33,146 nt of DNA from Acidobacteriota bacterium (lineage in GTDB: Bacteria > Acidobacteriota > Vicinamibacteria > Vicinamibacterales > CAVVIG01): NCBI GenBank assembly GCA_017883165.1, contig JADGOC010000025.1, forward strand, positions 1-33,146, given 5' to 3'. Below are positions 8,755-27,301 of the stretch, piece by piece. The notes beneath the pieces are model-generated. The model was not told where the DNA came from. It searched no databases and saw only the letters and a program-made list of their open reading frames with translations. Made by a program: the position numbers and the translations under genes. Numbering within the stretch: the stretch's first letter is position 1; every line of letters begins with the position of its first letter.

Positions 8755-10011
8755 ATGAAGACGAACGTTCTCGCGGCAACACTGTGTGTAGCGCTCGGGG
8801 CGTCGGCCGCCGCCTCGCAAGCCTCCTTCGAGCAAACCACCCGCGATCTCGCGAGCCCTGACGCGAACGTCCGGATGCGTGCGGTTCAGCTCCTCAAGGA
8901 AGCGGCGTACCCGGAAGCGGCCGTGCCGCTCGCCAAACTGGTGACCGATCCGGAAGACGCCGTCCAGCTCGAGGCGATCGCCGCCGAGCTGAACATCTTT
9001 CTGGCCGAGAAGATCGTGCCGCGCAAGCGCATCGGCCTGGTCATCGAGGTCCGCAGCCAGATTGCCGCCGACGCGGCGTTCTCGCGCGGGCCCTCGGCGG
9101 TCGGTCCGCGCTCGGTGCCGATGGACGTCCTGGCGGCGCTGCGGGCCGCATCGCGCGACACGACGCCCCGTGTCGCGCTCGAAGCGCTGTACGCCTTCGG
9201 GACGTTGGCGCCACAATCGGGCGGCGCCGAGCGCCGCGAGCTGTTGCGCGCGAGCGGCCCGGACCTGGCCGCCATGCTCGGCGCGCCGGACCAGGGCGTC
9301 CGTTTCGCGGCCATCCGCGTCCTCGGACGGCTCTTCGAGAAGCGTCCGCAGGACGATCCGATCGAGACGACGGTGGGGGATGCGGTCATCACCGCGCTCA
9401 ACGAGGAGGATCGGCCCATGCGGGAGGCGGCCATTCAGACGCTCGGTGCCATGCGGTACGAGCGCGCGGTTCAGGCGCTGACCGATCTGTATCAGTATTT
9501 TCGTCGAGGCGATCTCGCCGGGACGACGCTCGACGCGCTCGCGCGCATCGGGCACCCCTCGAGCGTGCCACTCTTCACGGCGGCGCTGACCGGCAAGGAC
9601 AGCGCGTTCAAGGCCATCGCGATCGAGGGGTTGGCGCGGACCCGCGATGCGACGAACCTCGCGGCCATTGAGGCGGCGCTCGCCGGCGAGCGCGGCGACA
9701 GCGTCTTGCTGGCCGGGACGTTCGCGGCCGTCCTGTTGAGCCACGCGCCGATCGATCCGCTCATCGAGGCGCTCTCGCAGCCCCGCGCGCACGATCGGGT
9801 GCGCGAGTATTTGATCGAGATCGCGCCGGGGCGCACCAGCGACTTCGCGCGGCAGCTGCAGGATCCGGATGCCCGCCTGCGCGGCCAAGTGGTCGATATC
9901 CTCGGTCTCTCTGGCGATCGGGCGGCGCTGCCGCTCGTCGAGCCGCTGATGAACGATCAGAATCCGGTGGTGGCGCTCGCCGCCGAGCGCGCCGTGGCGC
10001 GTCTCCGATAG
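8755..10011 (+). CDS. exported HEAT-repeat protein
   Basis: 418 residues with a signal peptide (MKTNVLAATLCVALGASAAASQA). The rest is a chain of two-helix HEAT/armadillo repeats, for example PDANVRMRAVQLLKEA, DQGVRFAAIRVLGRLFE, DRPMREAAIQTLGAMRY and DARLRGQVVDILGLSG. Such solenoids bind other proteins; no catalytic motif is visible. It starts 8 bases after uvrA and is probably cotranscribed, although an exported scaffold has no obvious link to DNA repair. The stop codon lies at the edge of a palindromic element (10012-10078). Confidence 0.75.
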   Translation: MKTNVLAATLCVALGASAAASQASFEQTTRDLASPDANVRMRAVQLLKEAAYPEAAVPLAKLVTDPEDAVQLEAIAAELNIFLAEKIVPRKRIGLVIEVRSQIAADAAFSRGPSAVGPRSVPMDVLAALRAASRDTTPRVALEALYAFGTLAPQSGGAERRELLRASGPDLAAMLGAPDQGVRFAAIRVLGRLFEKRPQDDPIETTVGDAVITALNEEDRPMREAAIQTLGAMRYERAVQALTDLYQYFRRGDLAGTTLDALARIGHPSSVPLFTAALTGKDSAFKAIAIEGLARTRDATNLAAIEAALAGERGDSVLLAGTFAAVLLSHAPIDPLIEALSQPRAHDRVREYLIEIAPGRTSDFARQLQDPDARLRGQVVDILGLSGDRAALPLVEPLMNDQNPVVALAAERAVARLR

Positions 10012-10078
10012 GGGGTCGGGAGTCTTTTGCAGGATCTGCGATCAGAGTACGCAAAGACTGCAAAAGACTCCCGACCCC
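10012..10078. repeat. 67-bp palindromic element, copy A
   Basis: Perfect 21-base inverted arms (10012-10032 and 10058-10078; the left arm begins GGGGTCGGGAGTC and ends TTTTGCAG) around a 25-base centre containing TCAGAGTACGCA. It is nearly identical in arms and centre motif to the element inside uvrC at 26718. It fills the gap between the HEAT gene stop and the glycosylase and reaches into the glycosylase reading frame. The structure resembles REP/MITE-type non-autonomous elements; no transposase is in the window. Confidence 0.85.
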
Positions 10079-10698
10079 TGTTGCGGGCGTTCTACGATCG
10101 GCCGACGCTCGAGGTCGTCGGCGATCTCATCGGCAAAGTGCTCGTCCACCAGCGCCGCGGCGTCCGCACGAGCGGCGTCATCGTCGAAGTCGAGGCCTAC
10201 ATCGGCGAGTCGGATCCGGCCTGCCACGCCGCGCCCGGCCCCACGCCACGCAACCAACCGCTCTACGGCGCACCGGGCCACGCGTACGTCTATCTCAATT
10301 ACGGCATCCACTATCTCGTGAACGTCGTCACCGAAGCGCATGGGTCGCCTGCGGCGATCCTCATTCGTGCGCTCGGTCCGCTCGAGGGCGTGGACGTGAT
10401 GCGCCGGCGGCGCGGCCGGCCTGGAAAGCCGGCCGTGCACGACGATGATCTCTGTCGAGGCCCGGGCAATGTGACGAGAGCCATGGGCATCACGCTGGCC
10501 GAGAATCGACTCGATCTCACCGGCGATCGGCTGTTCGTCGAGGATCGCCGGATCGACGCCGGTCCGATCGCGTGGGGGCCGCGCGTTGGCATCCGCGTGG
10601 GCACCGAACAACCGTGGCGGGCGTACGTCGTGGGGCAGCGCGCAGTGTCTGGCAAACGCGTTGATTCGAGCGCTGGGCGACTGGCGACTAGCCGCTAG
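10027..10698 (+). CDS. 3-methyladenine DNA glycosylase (AAG/MPG family)
   Basis: Monofunctional base-excision glycosylase that removes alkylated purines such as 3-methyladenine. Family motifs: FYDRPTLEVVGDLIGKVLV, the catalytic region VEVEAYIGESDPACHA, NQPLYGAPGHAYVYLNYGIHYLVNVVT, and CRGPGNVTRAMGI. The frame opens with TTG 10027, inside palindromic element A, so the first 17 residues (MQDLRSEYAKTAKDSRP) come from the repeat. TTG 10081, immediately after the element, would give a product beginning at LRAFYDRPT and is a plausible native start. Neither has a Shine-Dalgarno. The C-terminal ATSR comes from a heptamer repeat, and the stop overlaps the end of the convergent aminopeptidase gene by 4 bases. 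Confidence 0.9.
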   Translation: MQDLRSEYAKTAKDSRPLLRAFYDRPTLEVVGDLIGKVLVHQRRGVRTSGVIVEVEAYIGESDPACHAAPGPTPRNQPLYGAPGHAYVYLNYGIHYLVNVVTEAHGSPAAILIRALGPLEGVDVMRRRRGRPGKPAVHDDDLCRGPGNVTRAMGITLAENRLDLTGDRLFVEDRRIDAGPIAWGPRVGIRVGTEQPWRAYVVGQRAVSGKRVDSSAGRLATSR

Positions 10699-14155: not shown

Positions 14156-14958
14156 CAGGACATGTTTCGATCGTGGGGGCCGGCCCGGGCGACCCTGAAC
14201 TGCTGACGCGCAAGGCGGTTGCGCGCCTGCGCGCCGCGGACCTCGTGCTCTACGACGCGCTCGTCGACGTCCGCGTGCTCGATTTCGCCAGGCGCGCGCA
14301 GCGTTTCTTCGTCGGGAAGCGCGCCGGCCGCCACGCGATCAGCCAGACGGGGATTGAGGCGCTCATGATCCGCGCCGCGCGGAAGGGGCGCCGCGTCGTG
14401 CGGCTGAAGGGCGGCGATCCGTTCGTCTTCGGCCGCGGCGGCGAGGAGGCGCTCGCGCTACGCGCGGCGGGAGTGCCGTTCGACGTCGTGCCCGGGGTGA
14501 CCAGCGCCGTCGCGGCGCCGGCGCTCGCCGGGATTCCGGTGACGCACCGAGGCCTCGCGTCGGCCTTTCTCGTCGTCAGCGGCCACGACGAGGCGGCGTT
14601 TGCGTCCGCGATCGGCCAACTGCAGCCCAACCGCGTGACGGTCGTCGTGCTGATGGGGGTCGGCCGCGCGGCGTCGCTGGCCGCGCTCCTCGTCGAGCGC
14701 GGGTGGGCGCGCGGCACACCGGCGGCCATGGTCTTTGCCGCGTCGACACCGCGACAGCAGGCGTGGTACGGCCGTCTCGGAGATCTCAGCTCGGACACGC
14801 TGGCCGCCGTGGTCGCCGGCGGCGACGATCCCGGCACGCTCATCATCGGCGACGTGGTGACGATCGCCGCGCGGATCGGCGTCAGCGACGCCGGCGCCAG
14901 CGACACCGAAGAGGCGCCTGCGGCCATGAGAAATGAGGAACGCTATGTCGGTCGTTGA
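14152..14958 (+). CDS. cobA: uroporphyrinogen-III C-methyltransferase
   Basis: 268 residues; SAM-dependent methylation of uroporphyrinogen III at C2 and C7 to precorrin-2, the first step to siroheme. Family motifs: HVSIVGAGPGDPELLTRKAVARL at the N-terminus, VLYDALVD, VRLKGGDPFVFGRGGEEA, VVPGVTSAVAAPALAGIPVTHRG. ATG 14152-14154 overlaps the stop of the preceding gene (ATGA). It also overlaps the start of the reductase gene, so all three are translationally coupled. Standalone length is typical of SUMT. Confidence 0.93.
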   Translation: MTGHVSIVGAGPGDPELLTRKAVARLRAADLVLYDALVDVRVLDFARRAQRFFVGKRAGRHAISQTGIEALMIRAARKGRRVVRLKGGDPFVFGRGGEEALALRAAGVPFDVVPGVTSAVAAPALAGIPVTHRGLASAFLVVSGHDEAAFASAIGQLQPNRVTVVVLMGVGRAASLAALLVERGWARGTPAAMVFAASTPRQQAWYGRLGDLSSDTLAAVVAGGDDPGTLIIGDVVTIAARIGVSDAGASDTEEAPAAMRNEERYVGR

Positions 14959-16783
14959 CGACACCACCACGTTCGGCCGCGCGCGTCTCTCCTTCGCCGA
15001 CCAGGCCGAGATCGACGACTTCGTCGCCACGCTCGGACGCTTCGAGCGCGGCGAGATCTCGCCGGACGCGTGGCGCCGATTCCGTCTGGTGCGCGGCACG
15101 TACGGCCAACGGCAGATCGAGGATGCGCAGATGCTGCGCGTGAAGGTTCCGCAGGGCGTGCTGACGGCCGACGCGCTGTCGGCGCTCGCCGACGTCGGCG
15201 AGCGCCACTCGCGCGGCTTCGGCCACATCACGACGCGCCAGAACGTGCAGTTCCATTTCGTCAAGCTGCACGACGTCGAGCCGGCGATGCGGCGGCTGGC
15301 CGACGCGGGTCTGACCACGCGTGAAGCGTGCGGCAACTCGGTGCGCAATATCACCGCATGTCCGTACGCGGGCGTCGCCGCCGATGAGCGGTTCGACGTG
15401 ACGCCGTACGCCGAAGCGCTCACGCGGTATCTGCTCCGGCATCCGCTCAGCTCGACGCTGCCGCGGAAATTCAAGATCGCGTTCGAAGGGTGCCCGGGCG
15501 ATCACGTCGCGACGGCGATCAACGATCTCGGGTTCCGCGCGGTCGTCACGCCAGACGGCCGCGGCCGCGGTTTTCGCGTGACGGCGGGCGGCGGCACGTC
15601 GATCCTCACCGCGTCGGGCCAGCTCCTGCACGAGTTCCTGCCGGCATCCGAAGTGTTCCGCGTGGCGGAAGCGGTCTTGCGCGTGTTCCATCGACTCGGC
15701 GACTACGAGCACAAGCAGCGGAACCGGATGAAGTTCCTCATTCGGACGCTCGGCTGGACCAGATGGCGCGAGGAGTACGACCGCGAGCTGGCGGCCTGCC
15801 GCCTGCAGGGCACCGTGCCGACGCTCGATATCGCGCCACCGGCCTCGGAGCCGCGGCCGGACTGGGCGCCCGGCCCATCGCCTTCGATCGGACACATCAC
15901 GGCGCGCGTCAGCGCCGAGTCGGTCAGCGGGCCGGGGCTTGCGCCGATCGTCGTTCCGATGTTCCATGCCGGCGACGAAGCCTACGCGCGGTGGCGCGCG
16001 ACCAACGTCAGACCACAGAAGCAGTTCGGGTACGTCATGGCGGTCGCAGCGGTGCCGCTCGGCGACCTCACGAGCGAGCAGATGCGCGTGCTCGCCGAAC
16101 TCGCGCGCGCCTACGGCGACGGCACCATCCGAGTGACGACCGAACAGGATCTGGTGTTCCGCTGGGTGAATGCGAGCGACGTGCGCCAGCTCTATCGCCG
16201 CCTCGCGGCCGCCGGGCTCGGGTTGGCGGAGGCGGGGACGCTGGCCGACGTGACGAGCTGCCCGGGCGCGGAAACGTGCCGCATTGCGGTGACGCAATCG
16301 CGCGGCCTCGGCCGGCTGCTCGAGGATCACCTGCGCGCCCGTCCCGGTCTCGTCGCCGCGGCCGACGACGCGCGCATCAAGATCAGCGGCTGCCCGAACG
16401 GCTGCGGCCAGCATCACATCGCGACGATTGGGTTCCAGGGCAGCGTGCGGCGCGTGGGCTCGCGCGCCGTGCCGCATTACTTCGTCATGGTGGGCGGCGG
16501 CGTCACCGATCGCGGCGCCAGCTTCGCGCGGCTGGCGGCGAAGATCCCAGCCCGCCGCATTCCGGTAGCCGTCGATCGGCTGATCGCGCTGTACGCGAGC
16601 GACAAGGCGGCGGGCGAATCGGCGACCTCGTTCTTCGTGCGGGTGGATCTGGCGCGAGTGAAGGCGATCCTGGCCGATCTCGAACGGCTCGCCGCCTCGG
16701 ACGCGACGCCCGACGACTTCGTCGATTTGGGCGAGGAGGCCGACTTCGCGCCCGAGGTGCTGGAAGGCGAGTGCTCAGCCTAA
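14945..16783 (+). CDS. siroheme [4Fe-4S] sulfite (or nitrite) reductase
   Basis: 612 residues of the ferredoxin-type NirA/SirA family: six-electron reduction of sulfite to sulfide or nitrite to ammonia. The cofactor Cys ligands are CPGAETC (C439, C445) and CPNGC (C483, C487). Substrate and siroheme motifs include GFGHITTRQNVQFHF and CGNSVRNITACP. ATG 14945 is chosen because GAGGAA precedes it; ATG 14933 is in frame but has no ribosome site. Sequence alone does not separate sulfite from nitrite reductase. The siroheme genes fit both, but the polycysteine leader upstream favours sulfite. Confidence 0.9.
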   Translation: MSVVDDTTTFGRARLSFADQAEIDDFVATLGRFERGEISPDAWRRFRLVRGTYGQRQIEDAQMLRVKVPQGVLTADALSALADVGERHSRGFGHITTRQNVQFHFVKLHDVEPAMRRLADAGLTTREACGNSVRNITACPYAGVAADERFDVTPYAEALTRYLLRHPLSSTLPRKFKIAFEGCPGDHVATAINDLGFRAVVTPDGRGRGFRVTAGGGTSILTASGQLLHEFLPASEVFRVAEAVLRVFHRLGDYEHKQRNRMKFLIRTLGWTRWREEYDRELAACRLQGTVPTLDIAPPASEPRPDWAPGPSPSIGHITARVSAESVSGPGLAPIVVPMFHAGDEAYARWRATNVRPQKQFGYVMAVAAVPLGDLTSEQMRVLAELARAYGDGTIRVTTEQDLVFRWVNASDVRQLYRRLAAAGLGLAEAGTLADVTSCPGAETCRIAVTQSRGLGRLLEDHLRARPGLVAAADDARIKISGCPNGCGQHHIATIGFQGSVRRVGSRAVPHYFVMVGGGVTDRGASFARLAAKIPARRIPVAVDRLIALYASDKAAGESATSFFVRVDLARVKAILADLERLAASDATPDDFVDLGEEADFAPEVLEGECSA

Positions 16784-16815
16784 ATCAACAAATGTAGATA
16801 TGTCGATGGCAGTAC

Positions 16816-16845
16816 TTGCGCCTGGGCGCGCCGCTTTGTTATAGT
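16816..16845 (+). promoter_or_regulatory. candidate promoter for the SAM riboswitch transcript
   Basis: TTGCGC (16816-16821), 18 bases, TATAGT (16840-16845). The transcript would start about a dozen bases before the riboswitch P1 strand. Confidence 0.55.
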
Positions 16846-16865
16846 CCCCGGGACAACTGAATACG

Positions 16866-17045
16866 CTCTTCTTATCCAGAGTGGCTGAGGGACAGGCCCG
16901 ACGACGCCACGGCAACCACGTGAGGTTCGGCACGAGAGGCCTCGCGGTTCAGGTGCCAATTCCTGCCTCGACGGTCCGGCTGAAGCCGGACACTACAGAT
17001 GTAGTGTCCGCCTTTCGGCGGACCCGGGAGGGGAGATGAGGGGAG
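16866..17045 (+). ncRNA. SAM-I (S-box) riboswitch with an enlarged P4 arm
   Basis: The aptamer core is recognisable: CTTATC at the 5' side, GAGGGACAGGCCCGACGA, GGCAACC, and GGTGCCAATTCC. P2 pairs GTGGC (16881) with GCCAC (16906), and P3 pairs GTGAGG (16920) with CCTCGC (16940). P1 can be closed by CTCTTCTTATC (16866-16876) with GATGAGGGGAG (17035-17045), 11 pairs including G-U. P4 can be closed by TTCC...CTC (16960-16969) with GAGGGGA (17028-17034). A palindromic repeat fills the space inside P4. The switch binds S-adenosylmethionine and normally shuts off methionine-related genes; here the target is hom-thrC. No terminator with a T-run follows. Confidence 0.88.
16973..17024. repeat. REPIN-like palindromic repeat within riboswitch P4
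   Basis: A 52-base unit made of two hairpins in inverted orientation: GTCCGGCT-GA-AGCCGGAC (16974-16991) and GTCCGCC-TTTC-GGCGGAC (17006-17023). They are joined by ACTACA-GA-TGTAGT, which also lets the whole unit fold as one long stem. Two inverted REP hairpins form the layout called REPIN in other genomes. Only one copy is in the window. Confidence 0.7.
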
Positions 17046-17061
17046 GTGAAGCACCGTGCGA

Positions 17062-17112
17062 CGCCTTCTCCTCGGAGAAGGCGTATCGCGTACGGCTTCA
17101 TATCCTGAGGAG
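17062..17112 (+). promoter_or_regulatory. possible translational expression platform of the SAM riboswitch
   Basis: Hairpin CGCCTTCTC-CTCG-GAGAAGGCG (17062-17083). Its CTCCTC (17068-17073) could instead pair with the hom ribosome site GAGGAG (17107-17112). The two pairings exclude each other. This suggests, without proving, that SAM controls translation initiation of hom. Confidence 0.4.
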
Positions 17113-17119
17113 CGTGTTC

Positions 17120-18334
17120 ATGAGCGTCGATTCCTTTCTCGCATCCGGCAACAGCCCAGGCGACTTCACCCGTCCGGCCGCCCTCGTGGCGGCGGCGCAG
17201 CGCTGTCGCGTCGGCATCCTCGGCTTCGGGACCGTCGGTTCCGCGATCGCCCGGCGTCTGGGCGGCGCCGACTCCACGGGCGCGGCTGGCGCGGCTGGCG
17301 CGCCTGGGACGGTTGACGGCCTCGACCTCACACACATTCTCGACCGCCGCGCGTTCGCGAAACGCGACGCCTTGAACGGCCACGCGCCCGCCTTTCGCGC
17401 CAACATCGTCTGGACGACGCGCTTCGAGGATGTCCTGGCGAGCGACGTCGACGTCATCGTGGAAGCGATTGGCGGCATCGAGCCGGCCGCCGAATGGATT
17501 CGCGCGGCGCTGATGGCCGGCAAGTCGGTGGTCACCGCCAACAAGCAGGTCATTGCGCATCATGGGCCGGCGCTGCTCCAGCTCGCCGAACGGCAGGGGC
17601 GGCAGCTGCGCTTCGAGGGGGCCGTGGGCGGCGCGATGCCGATCGTGCGCGCGGTGAGCGACGGGCTGGCCGGCGATCGGCTCACGCGCATCGTGGCGAT
17701 TTTGAACGGTACGAGTAACGCCGTGTTGTCGCGCATGGAAGCGACCGGCTGCACGGTCGCCGAAGGGCTCGTCGAAGCGCGACATCGCGGGTGGGCCGAA
17801 GCGGACCCTTCAGCGGACGTGGACGGCATCGATGCGCGCGCCAAGCTCGCGATTCTCTGCGGCGTGGGGTTCCAGCTGCGCGTGGAGCCGGCACGCATCG
17901 AGACGCGGTCGATCGCGCAGCTGCGGCCGGCGGAATTCCAGGCGGTCCGCCGCCGCGGCGCGACGATCCGTCAGCTCGCGTTTGCCGAGTATGATCGTGC
18001 GCGCGCCGCGCTGACGGCCTGGGTCGCCCCGGCGATCGTCCCGCGCTCGTCGATTTTCGCGCGTACCTGCGGCCCGCAGAACGCGGCGCTCATCACCGGC
18101 GAACACGCCGGCGAGATCGGCGTGTTCGGCGCCGGCGCGGGCGGCGCGGCGACGGCCGTCGCCGCGATCGGCGATCTGCTGGCCATCGCGCGCGATCGCT
18201 CGGCGGTCGTGCCGGCGCCCGTGTGGTCGGCGCCCTCGCTCATCAAGGGCCTCAACCGCGGCACGCACATCGTCGATTTCGACAACCGGTACGGAGAACG
18301 TCAGACGGGCCGGCGGCTCGCGGAGGCGGTATGA
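17120..18334 (+). CDS. hom: homoserine dehydrogenase
   Basis: 404 residues. Reduces aspartate semialdehyde to homoserine, the branch point to threonine and methionine. The NAD(P)-binding motif VGILGFGTVGSA (glycines 35-40) is followed by VDVIVEAIGGIEPA, SVVTANKQVIAHHG, ILNGTSNAVLSRM and a catalytic-domain stretch GWAEADPSADVDGIDARAKLAIL. No C-terminal ACT domain is seen, so allosteric threonine control may be absent. ATG 17120 was chosen because GAGGAG lies seven bases upstream and the product starts conventionally; the frame is open back to 17036 through the riboswitch tail. An Ala/Gly repeat (GAAGAAGAPG) lies after the Rossmann loop. Confidence 0.93.
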   Translation: MSVDSFLASGNSPGDFTRPAALVAAAQRCRVGILGFGTVGSAIARRLGGADSTGAAGAAGAPGTVDGLDLTHILDRRAFAKRDALNGHAPAFRANIVWTTRFEDVLASDVDVIVEAIGGIEPAAEWIRAALMAGKSVVTANKQVIAHHGPALLQLAERQGRQLRFEGAVGGAMPIVRAVSDGLAGDRLTRIVAILNGTSNAVLSRMEATGCTVAEGLVEARHRGWAEADPSADVDGIDARAKLAILCGVGFQLRVEPARIETRSIAQLRPAEFQAVRRRGATIRQLAFAEYDRARAALTAWVAPAIVPRSSIFARTCGPQNAALITGEHAGEIGVFGAGAGGAATAVAAIGDLLAIARDRSAVVPAPVWSAPSLIKGLNRGTHIVDFDNRYGERQTGRRLAEAV

Positions 18335-19566
18335 GCGCGTTCATCGGACTGCAGTGCCATCTGTGCCACACGCCGTTTCCCGCGCAGGCGTTGTATGTCT
18401 GCGACCGCTGCCTCGGGCCGCTCGAACCGGTCTACGACTACGACGCCATTCGGCTGACGCGCGAGCTGATCGCCAGCCGGCCGAAGAACCTCTGGCGCTA
18501 CCGGGAATTGCTGCCGATCACCGGCGAGCCGCGCACCGGCTTCAACTCGGGATTCACGCCGCTCGTCCGCTGCGATCGTCTGGCCGAGCGTCTCGGCCTG
18601 CGCGAGTTGTACATCAAAGATGACTCGGTGAATCATCCGACCTTGTCCTACAAGGACCGCGTTGTCTCCGTCGCCGCGACGCGCGCGCTCGAGCTCGGCT
18701 TCAAGGTGCTCGCGTGCGCGTCCACCGGCAACCTCGCCAACAGCGTCGCCGCACACGCCGCGCGGCTCGGCGTCGAGTGCGTCGTCTTCATCCCCGACAA
18801 TCTCGAAGCGGGGAAGCTGCTCGGCTCGGCCATCTTCAACCCCACCATTCTCGCCATCGCGGGCAATTACGACGATGTGAACCGGCTGTGCACGCAGGTG
18901 GCGGATCGCCACGCGTGGGGCTTCGTGAACATCAACCTCCGTTCGTACTACGCGGAAGGCGCGAAGACGTACGGATTCGAGATCGTCGAGCAGCTGGGCT
19001 GGCGCTATCCGGATCACGTGGTGTCGCCGGTCGCCGGGGGCACGCTGCTGCCGCGCATCGTGCGCGGATTCCGCGAGCTGCGGCAGGTGGGACTCGTGGA
19101 CGGCGATCTACCGCGCGTCCACGCCGCGCAGGCGGCCGGCTGCGCGCCGGTCATCAACGCGCTCGAGGCCGGGCTCGAACATCCGGAGCCGGTGCGGCCG
19201 GACACGATCGCGAAGTCGATTGCGATCGGCAACCCCGCCGACGGCTATCAGGTGATCCAGACGATCCGCGAAACGGGCGGCACCGGCGCGGCGGTCAGCG
19301 ACGCGCAGATCGTCGACGCGATTCAGCTGCTCGCGGAAACCGAAGGGATCTTCACCGAGCCGGCCGGCGGCACGACGCTCGGCGCCACGATCGAGCTGGT
19401 GAAGCGCGGCGTCATCGGGCGCGACGAATCGGTCGTCGTCTGCGTGACCGGCAACGGCTACAAGACGGGAGAGGTGCTGCAGGGCCGGCTGCGCGAGCCG
19501 GTGCGGTTGAGCCGCGCGTTCAAGGAATTCGAGAGCTGGTTCGAGACCCGCGAGGCGATCGCCTAG
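18331..19566 (+). CDS. thrC: threonine synthase
   Basis: 411 residues; PLP-dependent conversion of O-phosphohomoserine to threonine. It has an N-terminal zinc-ribbon-like segment (C9, C12, C24, C27: CHLCH and CDRC) and then the fold type II core with the PLP lysine in TLSYKDRVV, STGNLANSVAAHA and VAGGTLLPR. This is the ThrC type common in Acidobacteria and archaea. ATG overlaps the hom stop (ATGA), so translation is coupled. The 3' end overlaps the convergent protease gene by 4 bases. Homoserine kinase is not in the window. Confidence 0.92.
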   Translation: MSAFIGLQCHLCHTPFPAQALYVCDRCLGPLEPVYDYDAIRLTRELIASRPKNLWRYRELLPITGEPRTGFNSGFTPLVRCDRLAERLGLRELYIKDDSVNHPTLSYKDRVVSVAATRALELGFKVLACASTGNLANSVAAHAARLGVECVVFIPDNLEAGKLLGSAIFNPTILAIAGNYDDVNRLCTQVADRHAWGFVNINLRSYYAEGAKTYGFEIVEQLGWRYPDHVVSPVAGGTLLPRIVRGFRELRQVGLVDGDLPRVHAAQAAGCAPVINALEAGLEHPEPVRPDTIAKSIAIGNPADGYQVIQTIRETGGTGAAVSDAQIVDAIQLLAETEGIFTEPAGGTTLGATIELVKRGVIGRDESVVVCVTGNGYKTGEVLQGRLREPVRLSRAFKEFESWFETREAIA

Positions 19567-25423: not shown

Positions 25424-27301
25424 ATGGCCATCCACGAACTCAAGGAGCAGATTGCCCGGCTGCCCGAGCAGCCCGGAGTCTATCTGTACTTCAACGCGGA
25501 CGGCGACACGATTTACGTCGGGAAAGCGCGCGCGCTGCGCGACCGCGTGCGCAACTATCTAGGCGCGTTCGGGTCGGACTCGAAAACCGACGCGCTGCTG
25601 AACGAAGTCGCGCGCCTCGAGGTCATCGTCACCGACTCGGTCGTCGAGGCGCTGGCGCTCGAGAACAATCTCATCAAACAGCGCGCGCCGAAGTACAACA
25701 TCCTGCTTCGCGACGACAAGAACTATCCGTATCTGCAGCTGACGACGAACGAGCCGTTTCCGCGCGTCCTCGTCGCGCGCCGCGTGGAGCGCGATGGCAG
25801 CTTCTACGCGGGCCCGTTTCTGCCCGCCACCTTCGCGCGCAAGACGATGGCGCTGACACACCGGCTGTTCGGGATGCGTTCGTGCAACGAGGTGATCACC
25901 GGCAAGCGCGAACGACCGTGTCTGGAGTACGACATCAAGCGCTGCATTGCGCCATGCGTGGACACGGTGTGCGGCGCCGAGGAGTATGGGCGCGCGGTGG
26001 CGCTCACGCAGCTGTTTCTCGAGGGCAAGAACGACGAGCTGCTGAACACGCTCGGCGCGCGCATGGCGGACGCCGCCGCGGGCGAGCGCTATGAAGAAGC
26101 GGCGCAGATGCGCGACGCGATGCGCACCGTGCAGACGCTGCACGATCGCCAGCAGAAGATGGCGACGCCCGAGTTCGGGCACCGGGACGTTTTCGGACTC
26201 AAGATGGGTCCGGCCGGCCTCGTCATCCAGGTCTTCCAGGTCCGCAGCGGCCGGGTCGTCGAGCGCGTGGAGCTTGGGAGCGAGCAGGCGATGGCCGGGT
26301 CGCGCGAGGGCGAAGTACTCGAGGCGGGGATCCAGCAGTTCTACGAATGGCGCGGCGCGCCGCCGGAGATCCACGTGCCGGCTGAACCGGACGAGCGCGA
26401 GGCGCTCGAGAGCTGGCTCTCCGAGCGCGCGAGGCGGCGGGTCCGCATTCTGGTGCCGCAGCGCGGCGACAAGCGCGGGTTGATCGATCTCGCGAACCGG
26501 AACGCCGCGCTGGTGTATCAGACGCGCTTCAACCAGACGACTGCCGCGCAGTACGACGCCCTCGAAACGCTGCAGGCGGTGCTCGCGCTGCCGGCGATCC
26601 CGCGGCGCATCGAGTGTTTCGATATTTCGACGATTCAAGGCAGCGAGACGGTGGCGTCGATGGTGGTGTGCGAGGACGGCCGTATGCGCCGCGGCGAGTA
26701 CCGCAAGTACCGCATCCGGGGTCGGGAGCCTTTTGCAGTTTCTGCCACGTTAGAGCGTCAGGGTACGCAGAAACTGCAAAAGGCTCCCGACCCCCCTGTG
26801 AATAACGACTTCGCGGCGATGCACGAAGTTGTCCTCCGCCGGTATCGCAAGCTGCTCGAGCAGGGCGGGCCGTTTCCCGATCTCATCCTGGTCGATGGCG
26901 GCAAGGGGCAACTGTCCGCGGCGTATACGGCGCTCGAAGCGCTGGGGCTCGCCAATCTCGTCGCGATCGGCATCGCGAAAAAAGAAGAGCTGCTCCACAC
27001 GCGCGACCGTGTCGATCCCATCGCGCTCGCGCCGCACGATCCCGCGCTGCTGCTCGTCCAGCGCATTCGCGACGAAGCGCATCGCTTCGCGGTGGCGTTC
27101 CACCGACGCGCGCGCACGATGCGCGACCTCCGATCGGAGCTCGACCATGTTCCCGGGATCGGGCCGCGCCGCCGACGCACCCTCCTGACGACATTCGGAA
27201 GCGTGGCGGGCGTGCGGCGCGCGACGCGCGAAGAGCTCAAGGCGGTGATCGGCCCGAAAGCGGCGGATCTCGTCCTTGCGTTTTTCGCGAGTCGGCCGTA
27301 A
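25424..27301 (+). CDS. uvrC: excinuclease ABC subunit C
   Basis: 625 residues; makes the 3' and 5' incisions of nucleotide excision repair. N-terminal GIY-YIG nuclease (QPGVYLYFNADGDTIYVGKARALRDRVRNY), UVR domain (RYEEAAQMRDAMRTV), RNase H-like nuclease (IECFDISTIQG ... PDLILVDGGKGQLSAA), and a tandem HhH tail (LDHVPGIGPRRRRTLL). A palindromic element (26718-26794) is translated in frame as residues about 432-458, between KYRIRG and NDFAAMHEVV inside the RNase H-like domain. The flanking family motifs are intact. No good Shine-Dalgarno precedes the ATG. Confidence 0.96.
   Translation: MAIHELKEQIARLPEQPGVYLYFNADGDTIYVGKARALRDRVRNYLGAFGSDSKTDALLNEVARLEVIVTDSVVEALALENNLIKQRAPKYNILLRDDKNYPYLQLTTNEPFPRVLVARRVERDGSFYAGPFLPATFARKTMALTHRLFGMRSCNEVITGKRERPCLEYDIKRCIAPCVDTVCGAEEYGRAVALTQLFLEGKNDELLNTLGARMADAAAGERYEEAAQMRDAMRTVQTLHDRQQKMATPEFGHRDVFGLKMGPAGLVIQVFQVRSGRVVERVELGSEQAMAGSREGEVLEAGIQQFYEWRGAPPEIHVPAEPDEREALESWLSERARRRVRILVPQRGDKRGLIDLANRNAALVYQTRFNQTTAAQYDALETLQAVLALPAIPRRIECFDISTIQGSETVASMVVCEDGRMRRGEYRKYRIRGREPFAVSATLERQGTQKLQKAPDPPVNNDFAAMHEVVLRRYRKLLEQGGPFPDLILVDGGKGQLSAAYTALEALGLANLVAIGIAKKEELLHTRDRVDPIALAPHDPALLLVQRIRDEAHRFAVAFHRRARTMRDLRSELDHVPGIGPRRRRTLLTTFGSVAGVRRATREELKAVIGPKAADLVLAFFASRP
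26718..26794. repeat. 77-bp palindromic element, copy B, inserted in frame in uvrC
   Basis: Perfect 28-base inverted arms (26718-26745 and 26767-26794; the left arm begins GGGGTCGGGAGCC and ends GTTTCTGC) with a 21-base loop that contains TCAGGGTACG. Compared with copy A at 10012, the outer 21 bases differ at a single position, T to C, matched by A to G in the other arm. The centre shares TCAG-R-GTACGCA. No stop codon occurs in the uvrC frame. Confidence 0.9.

Follow-up and report, generated by a model that had tools for sequence, protein, structure and literature searches.

How did a riboswitch upstream of a threonine biosynthesis operon come to carry a P4 arm more than twice the length of that in its short relatives, and does the aptamer survive it? 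We asked this of a window of 33,146 nucleotides, the whole stretch of an Acidobacteriota contig that was analysed, in which a riboswitch at 16866–17045 lies between a nitrite/sulfite reductase-like gene (14933–16783) and hom-thrC. Riboswitch arms differ greatly in length, and the origin of the added sequence is rarely known; here it can be identified. Taken together, the evidence makes it very probable that this locus is a functional SAM-I switch of hom-thrC into whose P4 loop a REPIN was inserted and tolerated.

The RNA shares with SAM-I (S-box, RF00162) riboswitches the core sequence, the P1–P4 architecture, the L2–J3/4 pseudoknot and a position before amino-acid biosynthesis genes. RF00162 matches 16869–17005 at 53.5 bits (cmscan; gathering score, 44.4), and this match near hom is the sole SAM-I match of the 4.24 Mb assembly (334 contigs), in which the window is contig C181. 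The aptamer had been called canonical in an earlier note on this DNA, a reading borne out by these matches and by a covariance model built from relatives, which covers the full span. From its sequence, 16866–17045 is thus a SAM-I aptamer that is predicted to bind SAM. The features of the locus are as follows.

16866–16876, + strand: P1 helix, 5′ strand (CTCTTCTTATC); pairs with 17035–17045, with P1 covariation among relatives
16881–16910, + strand: P2 domain, from the RF00162 alignment; invariant in the family alignment
16881–16885/16906–16910, + strand: P2, part of the P2 domain
16889–16891/16897–16899, + strand: P2b, part of the P2 domain
16893–16896, + strand: L2 pseudoknot strand CAGG, within the P2 domain
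16911–16957, + strand: P3 arm, GGCAACC (16911–16917) with GGTGCC (16952–16957)
16962–16965, + strand: J3/4 pseudoknot strand CCTG, partner of CAGG at 16893–16896; covariation among relatives
16966–16969, + strand: P4 base, 5′ strand CCTC; register from covariation among relatives
16973–17024, + strand: REPIN in the P4 loop, two inverted REP units with GTAG feet inward; genomic copies, and an empty site in G023
16974–16996, + strand: REP unit A, GTCCGGC-TGAA-GCCGGAC with foot ACTAC (GTAG on the − strand); up to 100% identity to other genomic copies
17001–17023, + strand: REP unit B, GTAGT foot with GTCCGCC-TTTC-GGCGGAC; from sequence and related genomic copies
17028–17031, + strand: P4 base, 3′ strand GAGG; family alignment columns 120–123
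17035–17045, + strand: P1 helix, 3′ strand (GATGAGGGGAG); from fold, covariation and the model from relatives
17061–17084, + strand: attenuator-like hairpin without a U-tract, candidate expression platform, with a 5′ arm able to pair with the P1 3′ strand
17107–17112, + strand: putative hom ribosome binding site GAGGAG, from sequence, 7 nt before the ATG at 17120
17120–18334, + strand: hom, homoserine dehydrogenase (NF004976, 301.8 bits, cut-off 205; PF00742)
18334–19566, + strand: thrC, threonine synthase (TIGR00260, 277.4 bits, cut-off 167.1)

Whether the aptamer closes around the repeat depends on the strands that lie beyond it. All 11 positions of the P1 3′ strand pair with the 5′ strand, CCTC pairs with GAGG to form the P4 base, and an unconstrained fold of 16860–17050 (−91.1 kcal/mol, z −3.8) closes both P4 and P1, with P1 pair probabilities of 0.92–1.0 in the ensemble in the presence of the REPIN. 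The window RNA therefore has the P1–P4 four-way architecture with a closed P1, and the earlier proposal that sequence past the repeat closes both helices holds. ViennaRNA favours a register of the P4 base shifted from the comparative one, and P4 and P1 close in both. ViennaRNA folding is blind to the pseudoknot, which is intact in the window and covaries among relatives as CAGG/CCTG, CTGG/CCAG and CGGG/CCCG. Across 11 relatives, four of the six P4 pairs show two-sided changes and 100% of cells pair; two-sided changes also occur in three P1 pairs. Because both P4 and the pseudoknot covary, we assign CCTG at 16962–16965 to the pseudoknot and CCTC/GAGG to the P4 base. The upper part of P3 is longer in the window than in relatives. 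P1, the P4 base and the L2–J3/4 pseudoknot are retained despite the insert.

The two available models disagree on where P1 ends. The Rfam alignment sets the P1 3′ strand at 16998–17005, within the repeat. The covariance model from 11 relatives with REP-free P4, from which the window was left out, recovers the full span 16866–17045 at 94.9 bits in a default run and favours 17035–17045 by score, so the Rfam placement is rejected. With filters off over 16700–17200, the same model (R1) ends at 16989 (16866–16989, 68.8 bits); since the longer parse has the higher score, this shorter match probably reflects a length limit of the scan. Fold, covariation and the model from relatives thus agree that the P1 3′ strand lies past the repeat, which is not downstream of the aptamer. 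A long P4 can lead default annotation to put P1 in the wrong place, as in the Rfam alignment here.

The insert itself is a 52-nt unit, GGTCCGGCTGAAGCCGGACACTACAGATGTAGTGTCCGCCTTTCGGCGGACC, lying exactly at 16973–17024 within a P4 region of 76 nt as counted. Its hairpins (REP A, 16974–16991; REP B, 17006–17023) carry GTAG tags at their feet (CTAC at 16993–16996, GTAG at 17001–17004) and are separated by a 4-nt spacer, AGAT. A REPIN is defined as two REPs in inverted orientation with a short spacer between them (PMC8049555), and GTAG-type REP families are described in a survey (PMC3733652); judged by its letters, the window unit is a REPIN of GTAG type. The two inverted hairpins described earlier are right as a REPIN sequence. 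As an RNA, the unit is predicted to form one long imperfect hairpin instead (−34.6 kcal/mol, compared with −27.4 for two hairpins and −31.4 when a middle hairpin is added).

If the unit is a mobile repeat, it should occur elsewhere in the genome, and it does. The pattern GTCCGNCTNNAGNCGGAC finds 16 hairpins in the window's genome (reversed-pattern control, 0), and a longer 24-mer with ≤3 mismatches finds 18 matches (control, 0). Relatives hold as many as 596 (G013) and 459 (G023) REP hairpins, with a control count of 0 in G013 for the same pattern. P4 length variation is known, and two family members (G002 and G015) have a long P4 built from other extensions without a REP, so ordinary drift might be imagined to have lengthened this P4 and chance to have made it resemble a REP. 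A 26-nt stretch of the insert, however, is 100% identical to genomic copies on contigs C321 and C240 with a control count of 0, and we regard drift as exceedingly improbable; chance resemblance is refuted by the genome-wide matches. No exact full REPIN other than the P4 copy occurs in the window's genome, which has a degenerate second one on contig C20, and none of the genome's other REPs lies within a known RNA among 20 loci. Elsewhere in the window, palindromic elements at 10011–10086 and 26710–26795 share GGGGTCGGGAGYCTTTTGCAG-type arms, those of the 26718–26794 element being 28 nt long and 100% complementary; they resemble a second small dispersed repeat family.

We then considered what might have moved the repeat. 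Y1 transposases of G013 and G023 score 90.5 and 93.8 bits against the REP-associated transposase model NF047646 (cut-off, 80), and both RAYT genes have the same GTAG-tagged REPs on both sides; RAYT-like genes of G021, G012 and G009 also adjoin REPs. From this arrangement we infer that a RAYT moved the P4 element. The window's genome has one Y1_Tnp (PF01797) gene, which scores 64 against the cut-off of 80 (NF047646) and has no adjoining REPs, so the mover may now be lost from this genome. The RAYT reading frames at L108:1941 and L110:1938 enter the downstream REP and seem to stop inside its hairpin.

A filled and an empty site within one genus bear on the insertion directly. G012 has a REP in P4 and G023 has none, while their leaders are near-identical, with 22 of 23 P3 positions the same (96%). 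What G012 carries is one REP unit plus a remnant, short of a full REPIN. This pair, together with the REP-flanked RAYTs of relatives, upholds the view that a mobile repeat landed in P4, and comparison of the leaders indicates a real and recurrent mobile-element insertion in the P4 loop.

How often has this happened? P4 is short (22–33 nt as counted) in 10 of 18 SAM-I family leaders, compared with 76 nt in the window owing to the REPIN, and long (43–84 nt) in the other 8. REP-derived sequence occurs in P4 in 5 of the 18: G000 (the window's), G009 (degenerate), G012, G013 and G014 (single hairpin). In G017 (L083:498-663), P4 contains another palindrome, GCCGGCTCAATGCCGGC, twice in tandem. Outside the family, 16 further leaders all have a short P4; P4 regions of G037, G038 and G050, from other families, measure 42, 41 and 94 nt and lack the window's REP. 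A scan of species genomes for a SAM-I core followed by the window's REP, using a strict pattern and with the window's genome perhaps absent from the set, returned only the records of G012 and G013, both Acidobacteria MAGs. These comparisons suggest that one REP family has inserted into this arm in several related lineages.

Under a neutral estimate based on REP counts, an assumed intergenic share of 10% and a target of 10–20 nt, 0.04–0.08 REPs are expected in P4 over 18 genomes. The probability of at least three P4 REPs besides the window's is ~1e-5 to 7e-5, or ~0.01 with the whole leader as target, in a post hoc calculation with independence of the cases and the intergenic fraction both assumed. 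P4 insertions thus exceed a crude neutral expectation, which is suggestive but falls short of proof.

These REPs could also descend from a single ancestral P4 REPIN, inherited by the family and later lost or degraded in most of its members. G000, G009 and G012 carry the insert at a similar place, 12–13 nt past the invariant AA, and the backbone of the tree is weak: that tree was built from hom and thrC, since rpoB is too fragmentary in these MAGs, and only 4 of its 16 inner branches are well supported. Single descent nonetheless appears doubtful to us. The window and G013 share 88% identity across the REPIN, far above the 52% of P3 in the same two RNAs, which supports independent insertions; further, the near-identical leaders of G012 and G023 differ in REP content, the G014 REP sits at another distance in another P4 stem, and parsimony on the best tree counts five changes in REP presence, a number that may include losses as well as gains. 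We favour independent insertions, and leave their number uncertain because the tree is too weak.

Such recurrence raises the possibility that the P4 loop of the hom/thrC leader is a preferred REPIN landing site, as would follow if the RAYT aims at the hairpin that P4 forms in single-stranded DNA, or if lengthening of P4 is favoured. We advance this tentatively and think it would more probably prove wrong than right. In an in-silico insertion scan, which is blind to the pseudoknot and the ligand pocket, insertions in the joints and L2 pass on secondary structure as well, so a preference for P4 cannot be put down to folding alone. The flanks of 81 REPs yielded no insertion target motif resembling the P4 flanks; the sole signal was an extension of the REP itself (G at −1). 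In a leader outside the family (G113, L214:311-452), a palindromic insert, GACAGACCTGAAGGTCTGTC, occupies P3 and is missing in same-genus G112 (L212:309-417). P4 does tolerate length change, as had been suggested, but it is not the only arm to do so.

Given these observations, a simple sequence of events can be proposed. Binding of SAM causes SAM-I switches to repress the genes downstream, and the aptamer most likely represses hom-thrC when S-adenosylmethionine is plentiful. The REPIN, a non-autonomous element probably copied by a RAYT-type single-strand transposase, would have entered the apical loop of P4 and, folding on itself, would have made P4 a long hairpin while leaving P1, P2, P3, the pseudoknot and the SAM-contacting core unaltered. 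Because the element would fold by itself and leave the core as it was, the switch is expected still to function, with the repeat as a tolerated passenger in the P4 loop, and we infer that the window RNA binds SAM. The claim that the ligand pocket is intact holds at the level of sequence and secondary structure.

The downstream region bears on how the switch might act. In SAM-I switches acting on translation, the ribosome site can form part of P1 (PMC2258182). In most relatives the start codon comes soon after a purine-rich P1 3′ strand, which fits translational control; unlike in most family members, the window's start codon lies ~75 nt past P1. The 5′ arm of the intervening hairpin (17061–17084) can form a duplex of −15.2 kcal/mol with the P1 3′ strand and so could compete with P1. 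G038 and G037, from other families, have homologous hairpins with the same pairing potential, each followed by a U-tract that the window's lacks. By tblastn, the riboswitches at L151, L159, L163, L150 and L164 (G023, G011, G013, G019 and G002) stand directly before thrC with no hom between, in contrast to the window.

The missing U-tract is one reason to ask whether the REPIN instead disabled or altered the switch, leaving a decaying riboswitch or a repeat that serves as its own attenuator, an RNase barrier or a Rho-related element. The predicted repeat fold is very stable (−34.6 kcal/mol), and a role for REPs in termination and mRNA stability has been hypothesised, according to the abstract of the GTAG survey (PMC3733652). 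Decay, however, would be expected to cost the aptamer P1 or core residues early, and the core motifs, the pseudoknot and all 11 P1 pairs are intact; the core is also kept in the four relatives with P4 REPs (G009, G012, G013 and G014). A disabled or altered switch is therefore improbable, and a working switch with a tolerated insert remains our preferred reading.

Each component of this arrangement has a known counterpart. Riboswitches carry variable insertions, long non-conserved stem-loops at particular sites that leave core folding undisturbed (Barrick and Breaker, 2007, PMC2258182); the window shows the same tolerance of long inserts, but in this case the insert can be traced to a mobile repeat that has both filled and empty sites. 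The repeat resembles REPs and REPINs of the GTAG super-family with their RAYTs in its inverted REPs, GTAG feet, short spacer, dispersal and, in relatives, REP-flanked RAYTs, and differs from known REPINs in sitting within a structured regulatory RNA. In the available passages of the GTAG survey, the carriers listed are Proteobacteria, Cyanobacteria, Chloroflexi and the PVC group, and Acidobacteria appear only for a transposase group (PMC3733652). A review of MITEs goes no further than to mention that mobile elements might give rise to riboswitches or terminators, together with T-box-like motifs within BOX elements (PMC10969869). We found no publication linking REPINs or REPs with a riboswitch in substance, in a search that most subscription journals fell outside. 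Neither long riboswitch insertions nor REPINs with RAYTs are new; a recurrent origin of such insertions from RAYT/REPIN elements appears undescribed in the literature searched.

With a close relative that has the empty site, and with several lineages serving as natural replicates, the family offers a means to test how large a foreign insert a ligand-binding RNA can bear and whether hairpins are what RAYT elements target. If P4 does prove to be a hot spot, a mobile-element family would be repeatedly rebuilding one arm of a metabolite sensor. As the window stands, it suggests that jumping DNA can join an RNA sensor without visible breakage.
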